NCBI GenBank assembly: GCA_016234805.1
Contig: JACRNU010000069.1
Location: forward strand, 1 to 64,000
Origin: Elusimicrobiota bacterium
GTDB lineage: Bacteria; Elusimicrobiota; Elusimicrobia; UBA1565; UBA9628
DNA length: 64,000 bases
Direction: 5' to 3'
The position numbers and the translations under genes are program-made. The notes beneath the pieces were generated by a model. That model ran no database searches and was not told where the DNA came from. It was given only the letters and a program-made list of their open reading frames with translations. Shown in pieces: positions 43,093-64,000 of this stretch; positions within the stretch are counted from its first letter, which is position 1, and the number at the start of each line of letters is the position of its first letter.

Positions 43093-44265
43093 CTACACCA
43101 GCCTCATGGCCCGGCGCACGCGGTCGAGCGTGGCAGCGGCCTTGAGGCGCGCCCGGCCGGTGCCCTCCTCGAGGATGCCGTCCACGGCCTTGGCGTCGTA
43201 CGCGGCCCGCCTGGCCCGGAACTCCGAAAAGGGCGGCTCGAGCCGGGCGAGCAGGTCACCCTTGCACGCCACGCACCCGATGCGGCCCTCGCGGCATTCG
43301 ACGCCTCGGGCCTCCCAGCCCTGGTTGTAGAGCTTGTGCAGGGCGTACACGGAGCACCCCGGCGGATTCTCCGGGCAGGGCTCCGGGTGACCCGGGTCCG
43401 TGGCCCGGGCGCGGGTCGGGTCCGTGTACATCCCCCCGACCTTGGCCTTGAGCCCCGCGGGCTCCTCGAAGATGTCGATCGTGTTCCCGTAGGACTTGGA
43501 CATCTTGCGGCCGTCCGTGCCGAGGAGCTTCGGGGTCTCGGTGGGCATGGCACGGGGCTCGACGAGGACCGCTCCACCCTTGCCCCCTCCGGCGAGCGGA
43601 GAAGGCCCCCCGCCTCCGGGGACCTGGCGCCCTGGCGCCAGGCCGAAGAGGCTATTGAAGCGCCGCGCGATCTCTCGGCTGAGCTCGAGGTGGGGCAGCT
43701 GGTCCTGCCCGACCGGGACCAGGTCCGCGTCGTAGATAAGGATGTCCGCGGCCTGCAGGACCGGATACCCGAGGAACCCGTGGGTACGCAGGCCTTCATC
43801 CGCCTCGCCGCCCGAGGAAGCGTCCGGCGCCTGCCCCCCTTCGGCGATTGGAGAACGGCCCGCGCCTCCGAGGGCCTCGCGTCCCAGCGCGAGGCCGTGT
43901 TTTGTCTTGGAGAGCTCCTGGAGCTGCTCCTTCCAGGTGGGGTTGTTCTCCAGCCACGACAGGGGCGTGACCATCGAAAGCAGCAGGAAGAGCTCCGCGT
44001 GCTCCGGCACCCGCGACTGCCGGAAGATCACGCACCGGGCCGGGTCGAGGCCCGCTGCCAGCCAGTCCAGGACCATCTCCCGGACGCTGGCGTCGAGCTC
44101 CTCGGTCCGGTCGTAGGCCGTGGTGAGCATGTGCCAGTCCGCCACGGCGAAGTAGCATTCATGCTCGTCCTGGATCGCGACCCACTTGCGCAGCGCGCCC
44201 CACAGGTTGCCCAGGTGGAGCCTTCCCGTGGGCCGCATCCCCGACATCACGATCTTGCGCTTCAT
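43093..44265 (-). CDS. trpS: Tryptophanyl-tRNA synthetase with two in-frame insertions
   Basis: The protein has 390 residues. It has the class I HIGH-like motif TGRLHLGNLWGAL and KMSKS in DGRKMSKSYGNTI, plus GYPVLQAADILIYDADLVPVGQDQ. Bacterial TrpRS is usually about 330-350 residues. The excess comes from two Gly/Pro/Ala-rich stretches, about 123-155 and 207-228, encoded by copies of a palindromic element. Both sit where other TrpRS have surface loops, so the enzyme is presumably active. The start at 44265 overlaps the M50 protease stop (ATGA); a longer frame to 44406 reads that gene's DNA. Confidence 0.93.
   Translation of the reverse strand: MKRKIVMSGMRPTGRLHLGNLWGALRKWVAIQDEHECYFAVADWHMLTTAYDRTEELDASVREMVLDWLAAGLDPARCVIFRQSRVPEHAELFLLLSMVTPLSWLENNPTWKEQLQELSKTKHGLALGREALGGAGRSPIAEGGQAPDASSGGEADEGLRTHGFLGYPVLQAADILIYDADLVPVGQDQLPHLELSREIARRFNSLFGLAPGRQVPGGGGPSPLAGGGKGGAVLVEPRAMPTETPKLLGTDGRKMSKSYGNTIDIFEEPAGLKAKVGGMYTDPTRARATDPGHPEPCPENPPGCSVYALHKLYNQGWEARGVECREGRIGCVACKGDLLARLEPPFSEFRARRAAYDAKAVDGILEEGTGRARLKAAATLDRVRRAMRLV
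43581..43645 (-). repeat. Palindromic element A, copy 1, in frame in trpS
   Basis: This 65-base element has hairpins CTCCG-GCGAG-CGGAG and CCTGGCGCC-CT-GGCGCCAGG. It is about 80% identical to 43831-43896, and related copies are in gcvP and tsaD. It encodes a Gly/Ala-rich loop of TrpRS. Confidence 0.75.
43831..43896 (-). repeat. Palindromic element A, copy 2, in frame in trpS
   Basis: This 66-base element is related to 43581-43645. Its second hairpin is CCTCGCG-TCCCAG-CGCGAGG: some of the bases that differ from copy 1 change in both arms, keeping the stem. Confidence 0.75.
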
Positions 44266-61284: not shown

Positions 61285-64000
61285 TCCTGGCCAGGCTGGC
61301 GGCCAGGAGCCGCCGTCCCCGAAGGCGAGGGTCGTTCTCCGCTCGCCGGAGGGGGCTCCTTGGGCCGGATGGCGAAGTTCCTGTCCCCGAACACGTTGTC
61401 GATGCGGCCGCAGTGGGGCCAGAACTTGGCCCTCCGCGTGGCCGCGGTCGGGAAGGCCGCGGCCTGGCGGGAATACCGGTGCTCCCATCGGTCGGAGGTG
61501 ACGGCCTCGCAGGCGTGCGGCGCGTTCTTGAGAGGGTTGTCCGCCTTGTCCGCCTTGCCCTCCGCGATGTCAAGGGCCTCGCGCCGGATCATGATCATGG
61601 CCTCGATGAAGCGGTCGAGCTCGACCTTGGGCTCGCTCTCCGTGGGCTCGACCATCATGGTTCCCGGGATGGGCCAGGACACGGTGGGAGCGTGGAAGCC
61701 GTAGTCCATGAGGCGCTTGGCAGCGTCGTCCACGGTCACGTCCGCGCTCTCCTTCAAGGGACGCAGGTCGAGGATGCACTCGTGCGCCACGAGCCCGCCG
61801 CGGCCCTTGAACAGGGTGGCGTAATGTCCCTCGAGCTTCTTGGCCACGTAGTTGGCGCTGAGGATGGCGGTCTCGGTGGCGGCCTTGAGGCCCGGCCCCC
61901 CCATCTGCGCGATGTACGCCCACGAGATGGGCAGGATGGACGCTGAGCTGAAGGCCGCGCCGGCCACGGGACCGGAGGCCTCGGGCCGCGCCGCGGGGTC
62001 GAGCGGGTCGTTGGGCAGGAGGTCCGCGAGCTTGCGCGTGACGCCTATGGGGCCCATGCCCGGGCCGCCGCCTCCGTGGGGCATGCCGAAGGTCTTGTGG
62101 AGGTTCAGGTGGCCTACGTCCGCGCCGAGCTCGGCCGGCCGACACAGGCCCACCAGGGCGTTCATGTTCGCCCCGTCCATGTAGACGAGGCCGCCGTGGG
62201 AATGGACCACGCGGCAGATGTCCTTGATGCCCTCCTCGAACACGCCGTGCGTGGACGGGTAGGTGACCATGAGGCATGCCAGGTCCTTGGCGTGCTCCGC
62301 GGCCTTGGCCTTGAGGTCAGCCATGTCGATGTCGCCGCCCGGAGCGCACTCCACGGTCACGATGGTCATCCCGGCCATGACGGCCGATGCCGGGTTGGTG
62401 CCGTGGGCCGAGCGCGGGATGAGGCATACTTTCCGCCGGCCTTCGCCTGAGCGCTCGTGGTGCCTGCGGATGACGAGCAGGCCCGCGTATTCGCCCTGGG
62501 ACCCGGCATTGGGCTGGAAGGAGAAAGCCGCGAAGCCCGTGATCTCGCGCAGCCACCCGTCGAACTCCTTGATCATGGCGAACGTGCCCTTGACCTGGTC
62601 CTTCGGAGCGAACGGATGCGGCTTGGCGAAGCCCGGCCAGGTGATGGGCATCATCATGGAGGCCGCGTTGAGCTTCATGGTGCACGAGCCCAGGGGGATC
62701 ATGGCGTTCGCGAGCGTCAGGTCCCGGGCCTCGAGGCGCTTGATGTAGCGCATCATCTCGGTCTCTGAGTGGTGCGTGGTGAACGCCGGGTCTCCGAGGA
62801 ACGAGCTCGTGCGCCTGAGAGCCTCTGGGACCACGGAGTGCACGTGGGCCCCTATCAGCCCGCCGAGGGGCTTGCCGTCCGCGAAGACCTCGAGGAGGTC
62901 CTTGAGGTCCGCCTCCCCAGAGGTCTCGTCGAGAGCGATCGCCAGGCACCCGTCCGAGAGCCGGCGCAGGTTGATGCGCCTCTCCAGGGCAGCGTCCAAG
63001 GCCCGGGCCACGGAGGAAGTATCCCTCTCGACCCGGACCGTGTCGAAGAAGGGCTCGTCCGGCACGCGCCAGCCCAGAGCCTTCAAGGCCGCGGCGAGGC
63101 GGCCTGCGAGGCCGTGGACGCGTCCCGAGATCCGCTTCAAGCCCTCGGGGCCGTGCCAGGCCGCGTAGAACGCGGCTGTCACGGCGGTGAGGACCTGCGC
63201 GGTGCAGATGTTGCTCGTGGCCTTCTCGCGGCGGATGTGCTGTTCGCGCGTCTGGAGCGCCAGCCGCAGCGCGGGCTTGCCCGAGGAGTCCTTGGAGACC
63301 GCCACGATGCGGCCGGGCATGAGCCTCTTGAGGCTGTCGCGCACGGCCATGTAGGCCGCGGCAGGTCCCCCGAAGCCCATGGGAAGGCCGAAGCGCTGGG
63401 TGCTGCCCACCGCGATGTCCGCGCCGAACTCACCCGGCGCCTTGAGGATCGTCAGGCCGAGGATGTCGGCCGCGACCGTCACCAGGACTCCGTGGCGGCG
63501 CGCGGACTCGCAGAGCGGCTTGTAGTCAGCCACCCGGCCGTCGGTCATCGGGTACTGCACCAGGACGCCGAAGAAGCCCTTGCCGAGGTCCGCGGTGCAC
63601 TCGTCGGCCGTGACCGTGCGGATGCCCAAGCTGCGGGCCCGGGTCTGGACCACGGCCCGGTTCTGGGGGTGACAGCCGTCGCTGATGAAGAAAGCCTTGT
63701 CGTTGGGCTGGCCAGCTGCGTTCCAGGACAGGGTCATGGCCTCGGCGCACGCCGTGGCCTCGTCGAGCAGGGAGGCGTTGGCCACGTCCATGGCGGTCAG
63801 GTCCATGACCATGAGCTGGAAAAGGCGCAGGACCTCGAGCCGGCCCTGGGCGATCTCGGCCTGGTAGGGCGTGTAGGCCGTGTACCAGCCTGGGTTCTCG
63901 AGGATATTGCGCTGGAGCACGGGCGGGGTGACGCAGTCCGAGAACCCCATGCCGATGTAGGACCGGAAGAGCTTGTTCTTGGTTGCCAGGCCCGCGAGCC
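61275..64000 (-). CDS. gcvP: Glycine dehydrogenase (decarboxylating), single-chain P protein, partial
   Basis: At least 908 residues; the 5' end is beyond the window (the frame is open to the edge with [15 protein letters not shown]). It decarboxylates glycine with PLP and passes the aminomethyl group to the H-protein lipoyl arm. The PLP Lys is in [22 protein letters not shown]- and C-terminal halves are both present, so this is the fused form and not the GcvPA/GcvPB pair. The conserved end FGDRNFA is followed by an odd 30-residue tail ([12 protein letters not shown]...GQECC) encoded by a palindromic element (61296-61356). Confidence 0.95.
61296..61356 (-). repeat. Palindromic element A, copy in the gcvP tail
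   Basis: About 60 bases match the trpS copies (CCCCCTCCGGCGAGCGGAGAA core with the CTCCG/CGGAG hairpin). It continues into a GGCGGCTCCTGGCCGCC hairpin shared with tsaD. It replaces the normal P-protein C-terminus. Confidence 0.7.

Follow-up and report, generated by a model that had tools for sequence, protein, structure and literature searches.

A 60-bp hairpin-forming element dispersed in coding sequence in one order of Elusimicrobiota

Element copies in trpS, gcvP and tsaD

The window, i.e., the whole 64,000-nucleotide stretch analysed here (C12:1-64000), comes from a 3.42-Mb MAG that is 92% complete (G000). Judged by the named relatives of its TrpRS, the organism belongs to Elusimicrobiota. 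All genomes with which it was compared are MAGs as well, among them that of its sister species (G001). A sequence-only reading had proposed a family of palindromic elements at four sites in the window. A covariance model (CM) trained on 21 copies, with E<=1e-3 as the match threshold, refined the coordinates and yielded three full copies; local matching to the consensus added one 3' half, which is below that threshold in the model. The copies are in or near the following genes:

32711-33829, minus strand: host gene tsaD (PF00814)
32768-32801, plus strand: 3'-half copy near the tsaD 3' end, covering consensus positions 29-62 with one mismatch; weak CM match (E=0.011)
43093-44265, minus strand: host gene trpS (TrpRS, 390 aa) with two in-frame inserts; PDB 2g36 is the best sequence and fold match
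43582-43643, plus strand: full copy in trpS (62-nt model; 60-nt unit 43583-43642), CM E=4.8e-10; empty site in G001
43834-43895, plus strand: full copy in trpS with the terminal hairpin CCTCGCG..CGCGAGG, CM E=1.8e-8; absent in G001
61275-63950, minus strand: host gene gcvP (glycine dehydrogenase; PF02347, PF21478)
61295-61356, minus strand: full copy near the gcvP 3' end, CM E=6.4e-12

The copy at 43834-43895 makes the first extra TrpRS loop and that at 43582-43643 the second, LAPGRQVPGGGGPSPLAGGG, which is read in frame R+2; one predicted element-encoded tryptic peptide of TrpRS is QVPGGGGPSPLAGGGK. The fold that AlphaFold predicts for TrpRS is confident (mean pLDDT 86.5) except at the two inserts, where confidence is low: pLDDT is below 50 in the first loop region (residues 132-157) and averages 48-54 in the block of the second. 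As modelled, the inserts are low-pLDDT loops on an intact fold. The proposal that the element added both loops to TrpRS stands for the second, which is missing from all of the approximately 70 TrpRS of relatives. The refuting condition named in the sequence-only reading, the same loops in distant species without the repeat, was checked for this second loop and did not refute the proposal. The first occupies a site that is already variable across the order, and for this loop the claim has to be weakened. At that position (residues 120-160 of the window protein), TrpRS of related Elusimicrobiota carry a highly variable loop of 10-60 aa that is absent from the TrpRS of other phyla and is possibly an older insertion hotspot.

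The GcvP and TsaD tails had been read as replaced by the element, which does not describe either gene well. In gcvP, about 22 codons are inserted a few codons before the stop, and the GcvP of the sister species ends GDRNFVVRVKGCEKG; this copy differs at 1/60 nt from another at C27:13630 of the same genome. The tsaD half copy is a 34-nt match with a local score of 63, compared to a maximum of 37 across 20 shuffled windows of 64 kb. In relatives, too, the TsaD tail varies and is rich in Arg, which leaves little room for claiming a change to this protein. A kinase linker at 13830-13911, also suspected of a related pattern, dropped out: its segment 13853-13886 scores 34, and shuffled sequence gives a mean of 31 and a maximum of 37.

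Unit structure, dispersal and empty sites

The unit opens with a conserved core, CCCCCTCCGGCGAGCGGAGAAC...CGCCTCCGGGGAC, and closes with a hairpin that varies in sequence and keeps its pairing. Its start (CCCCCTCC) does not recur in inverted form at its end (GCCGCCAG), and the element has no terminal inverted repeats (TIRs). The first hairpin, CTCCG-GCGAG-CGGAG, is common to the copies, as the sequence-only reading had it, and because it is nearly invariant it offers little covariation evidence. The terminal hairpin does: 86 copies in the main register have 33 different left arms, and on average 6.5 of 7 positions pair, compared to 4.3 in arm-swapped chimeras (z=14.3). The paired changes first noticed between the two trpS copies thus extend to the family, and maintenance of the terminal hairpin by compensatory change is strongly supported. 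By itself, the consensus strand folds with no better energy than shuffled sequence, so the case for structure rests on this covariation. An inner GGC/GCC pairing suggested by single-strand folding was rejected, as the alignment does not keep it. On the reverse strand, the hairpin ends in CTGG, CCTGG or CGGC, and in CGTC in a few G001 copies.

The genome search and covariance model that had been proposed as checks both returned a dispersed family. With a trpS copy as query, 53 matches were obtained in G000, and the covariance model gave 64, on many contigs and both strands. The model also found 41 copies in the sister species, 1-24 in each of the family-mates from genus g11, and in another family up to 52 (G044), with 27 in G041. 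It returned zero copies from the genomes of genus g9 and of the other sampled classes. Overall, 11 of 295 Elusimicrobiota genomes have matches, all within one order, and most of the phylum is without the element. The closest dispersed copies in G000 are only 1-3/60 nt apart, indicating that copying is recent on that scale. Contig C109 of G000 has unusually many copies, including four of the 59-nt type in tandem at 81552-81794 (loci L018 and L022), mostly with a period of 57 nt and apparently between two genes. Six element loci had zero matches in Rfam, and a literature search retrieved no published description of the element.

Comparison with the sister species shows empty sites. G001 lacks both trpS inserts as well as those of pheS, carB (both), glmM, kdsB and etfB; the remaining orthologous regions show no clear shared insertion between the two species, several of the alignments being messy. 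PDB homologues of PheS, CarB, TrpS, HflX and GlmM likewise miss about 19-25 residues at the insert sites. The cleanest insertion case is locus L041, where one tandem unit of another repeat is filled and its neighbour in the same genome is empty: the flanks, GCACGTCCGCGCCAG and AAACGCCGGGC, are identical in the two, and the size difference is exactly 60 nt, which is the length of the inserted unit. Copy boundaries are sharp, since flanking columns carry little information. The repeat beside the L041 insertion reads GCGCCAG on the left (target) and GCCGCCAG on the right (element). Because these two ends differ in the cleanest pair available, an exact target-site duplication appears unlikely; the repeat is probably better read as similarity between target and element.

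The host repeat at L041 belongs to a second, unrelated family with a 60-nt period (GGAGGCGGCACGCCCGCGCCAGAAACGCCGGGCGCGGGCAGGCC...), for which there are 41 matches in G000 and 28 in G001. It also occurs in the window at 35149-35216 (plus strand) and 50628-50701 (minus strand), and in L010 at 1248 and 1308. In four loci (on C89, C28, C13 and C42), the element described here lies inside this repeat at the identical site.

The 64+ copies, the near-identity of some dispersed copies, the empty sites in G001 and a filled/empty pair within one genome give good support to a dispersed element that has proliferated recently and inserts into coding sequence. The sampling is one MAG per species, from which recent proliferation can be read and present activity cannot. 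Of the earlier suggestion of an active or recently active coding-sequence parasite, we therefore retain the recent spread into genes.

Reading frames of intragenic copies

A Markov coding model built for this analysis, trained on element loci and used for all coding calls, placed 40 of 72 G000 copies within a single gene, with coding sequence on both sides in the same frame; the other 32 are at gene ends, intergenic or undecided. The intragenic hosts include PheS, TrpS, CarB (twice), PriA, HflX, a MiaB/RimO-type enzyme, TrpE, GlmM, KdsB, RecN and EtfB. In HflX (L003, C98:29353), the insert comes directly after the P-loop (GKSTLLNSL), where an insertion of 20-25 aa is unexpected in a GTPase.

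The element consensus has no stop codon in any of the six frames. Almost all copies have model lengths of 62, 59 or 65, which are equal modulo 3, corresponding to an inserted unit of 60 bp with variants of 57 and 63 bp, and some G001 copies have +1/-1 indels that are compensated internally. With a length that is a multiple of three and stop-free frames, insertion adds about 20 amino acids and leaves the gene unbroken; the readable product is a Pro/Gly/Ala/Ser-rich linker of approximately 20 residues. The frames are used unequally, both among the 40 intragenic copies of G000 (R+2 13, F+0 11, F+1 9, R+0 6, R+1 1, F+2 0) and among 40 intragenic copies from five other genomes (R+2 18, F+0 12, R+0 5, F+1 5). 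The two Arg-rich frames account for 1/40 and 0/40 copies, respectively (joint p=3e-13), the pattern that selection against poorly tolerated insertions would produce. From these sequence features, we infer that intragenic copies are read through in translation.

Target choice, mobilisation and relation to known repeats

The sequence to the left of a copy, including the first G of the element, resembles the copy's own 3' arm in register 0 and in no other register (z about 5 in G000 and 4.5 in G001; z=8.2 for both genomes at copy level, with shared-context copies excluded). The resulting in-register direct repeat is imperfect, with a mean of 4.0/6 matches compared to 2.9 by chance. The arm classes GCCAG, CCAGG and CGCCG each occur with the matching left flank, and with GACG added and shared-context copies dropped, the arm-class test gives p=0.007 for G000, 0.004 for G001 and 5e-5 for both. 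In permutation tests, copy-level coupling was not seen in G044, nor in the set of G041, G011 and G027, where the test is weak because nearly all arms belong to one class ending in CGCCG; the left flanks in these genomes tend to CGCCG. Together, the data suggest that target choice follows the hairpin arm.

We consider it probable, at roughly 0.6, that these repeats are a non-autonomous mobile element family, confined to one order of Elusimicrobiota, whose insertion is guided by the hairpin and performed by an enzyme acting in trans. Such an enzyme would recognise the folded terminal hairpin and insert the unit 3' of an arm-like target, with the opposite arm, to which the target is complementary, as the guide; a compensatory change in the hairpin would then shift the range of targets. 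A more far-reaching version is possible and held here only tentatively: the element may be adapted to coding sequence (3n length, six stop-free frames), with the terminal hairpin as an evolvable guide whose arm drift creates new target specificities. If so, the arm classes would be the visible trace of that process, with an insertion-site sequence specific to each.

A search for the enzyme, covering RAYT-type and IS200-type genes, produced no transposase or autonomous partner. This bears on the REP-associated transposase that the sequence-only reading had in mind, and on the more specific idea that a resident RAYT- or IS200-type Y1 transposase moves a REP-like element by single-stranded excision and guide-paired insertion 3' of a short target. 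The hairpin structure would fit, as would insertion beside a sequence like the element's own end, which recalls the cleavage-site/guide logic of IS608 (PMC5934647), and G000 has two Y1 genes and G001 true IS200-type TnpA genes. However, 44 of 57 genomes have RAYT-type genes (PF01797), in numbers unrelated to those of the element: G035 has 12 and zero elements, while G021 and G006 have elements and zero RAYT genes. No element flanks the RAYT genes examined in G000, G001, G044, G041 and G027 (best match E=0.017), and the GTAG tag is absent. With no relation to copy number and no flanking copies, RAYT was rejected as the mobiliser. The two IS200-type genes of G001 (L321 and L322) carry hairpins of their own, with no alignable ends common to both, and we regard movement by a resident Y1 enzyme as unlikely. 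The loops of the hairpins flanking these two genes are CCCTTG-like, similar to that of the element's terminal hairpin. Copying might also proceed without any transposase, by template switching at replication forks through microhomology between a CCAG-like target and the terminal direct repeat of each element. The in-register repeats, tandem arrays of unit-length period (C109:81552-81794) and the lack of an identified enzyme all agree with this, but template switching alone would not favour one 60-bp family that reaches 64+ copies in some genera and is missing from close relatives, and we give it still less credence than a Y1 enzyme.

Two further explanations concern the inserts rather than their movement. 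The inserts, short, with hairpins and located in essential, conserved genes, recall known bypassing elements and might be skipped in translation or removed from the RNA, leaving the protein unchanged. Skipped inserts would need neither a length divisible by three, nor open frames, nor avoidance of the Arg-rich frames, and as all three are observed, we consider bypass very improbable. Finally, the repeats could be immobile, encoding a useful linker module that recombination carried from gene to gene and selection favoured. The encoded peptides are indeed flexible, rich in Pro, Gly, Ala and Ser and located at tolerated positions; yet the use of both orientations and at least four frames precludes a common peptide, many copies fall between genes or at their ends, covariation in the hairpin is a property of the nucleic acid, and the sister species is without the inserts, making this hardly tenable.

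Several known repeats are close to the element. Rickettsia palindromic elements (RPEs) and their Wolbachia counterparts, WPEs, are dispersed hairpin-forming repeats that lie in frame in conserved, unrelated genes and add peptide loops while leaving the gene intact, and RPEs are about 105-150 bp long, have TIRs of approximately 12 bp and occur in intracellular alphaproteobacteria (PMC10969869, PMC2229807). The Elusimicrobiota element is likewise found in frame inside conserved genes (40 copies in G000, and another 40 across five further genomes), but is set apart from the described RPEs by its 60-bp unit, absence of TIRs, high GC content and phylum, and by its use of both orientations and four frames, length steps of three and a hairpin arm coupled to the flank. 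REPs of the GTAG and CGTC types lie mostly between genes as single stem-loops and have an invariant tag, the CGTC families having no dedicated transposase; when intragenic, units or dimers encode 20-30 aa, including in repair and tRNA-synthetase genes (PMC3733652). Our element is also a small palindromic repeat found inside genes; unlike in REPs, most of the copies tested lie within genes or at their ends, and a conserved core is joined to a variable hairpin, with neither a constant tag nor a link to RAYT. IS608 of the IS200/IS605 family inserts 3' of a short target specified by hairpin-adjacent sequence (PMC5934647). The element may do so too, its arm class and left flank being coupled in G000 and G001, but it has no transposase gene or tnpA association, and its target-like sequence is part of the hairpin arm itself. 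Bacterial MITEs such as Correia/NEMIS, ERIC and RUP are repeats of small size, dispersed and non-autonomous, and some contain open frames that are fused to genes (PMC2229807); the element shares the first three properties but lacks TIRs, and no exact target-site duplication was found. It works like RPEs and intragenic REPs and, because it has neither the length and inverted repeats of the former nor the tag of the latter, is not counted here with either; we place it among coding-sequence palindromic elements as a variant of its own.

Rickettsia and Wolbachia are already known to harbour selfish DNA that spares the essential genes it enters, and intragenic REPs are a partial precedent. Elusimicrobiota, a phylum still largely without cultures, where the relatives are mostly groundwater MAGs, provide a further and independent example, with a precise 60-bp unit, clear selection on reading frame and many empty sites in a sister species. 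The element offers a direct view of how loops arise in aminoacyl-tRNA synthetases, carbamoyl-phosphate synthase and GTPases, and the coupling of hairpin arm and insertion site is a testable route to a mobilising mechanism, a question so far open for CGTC repeats and RPEs.
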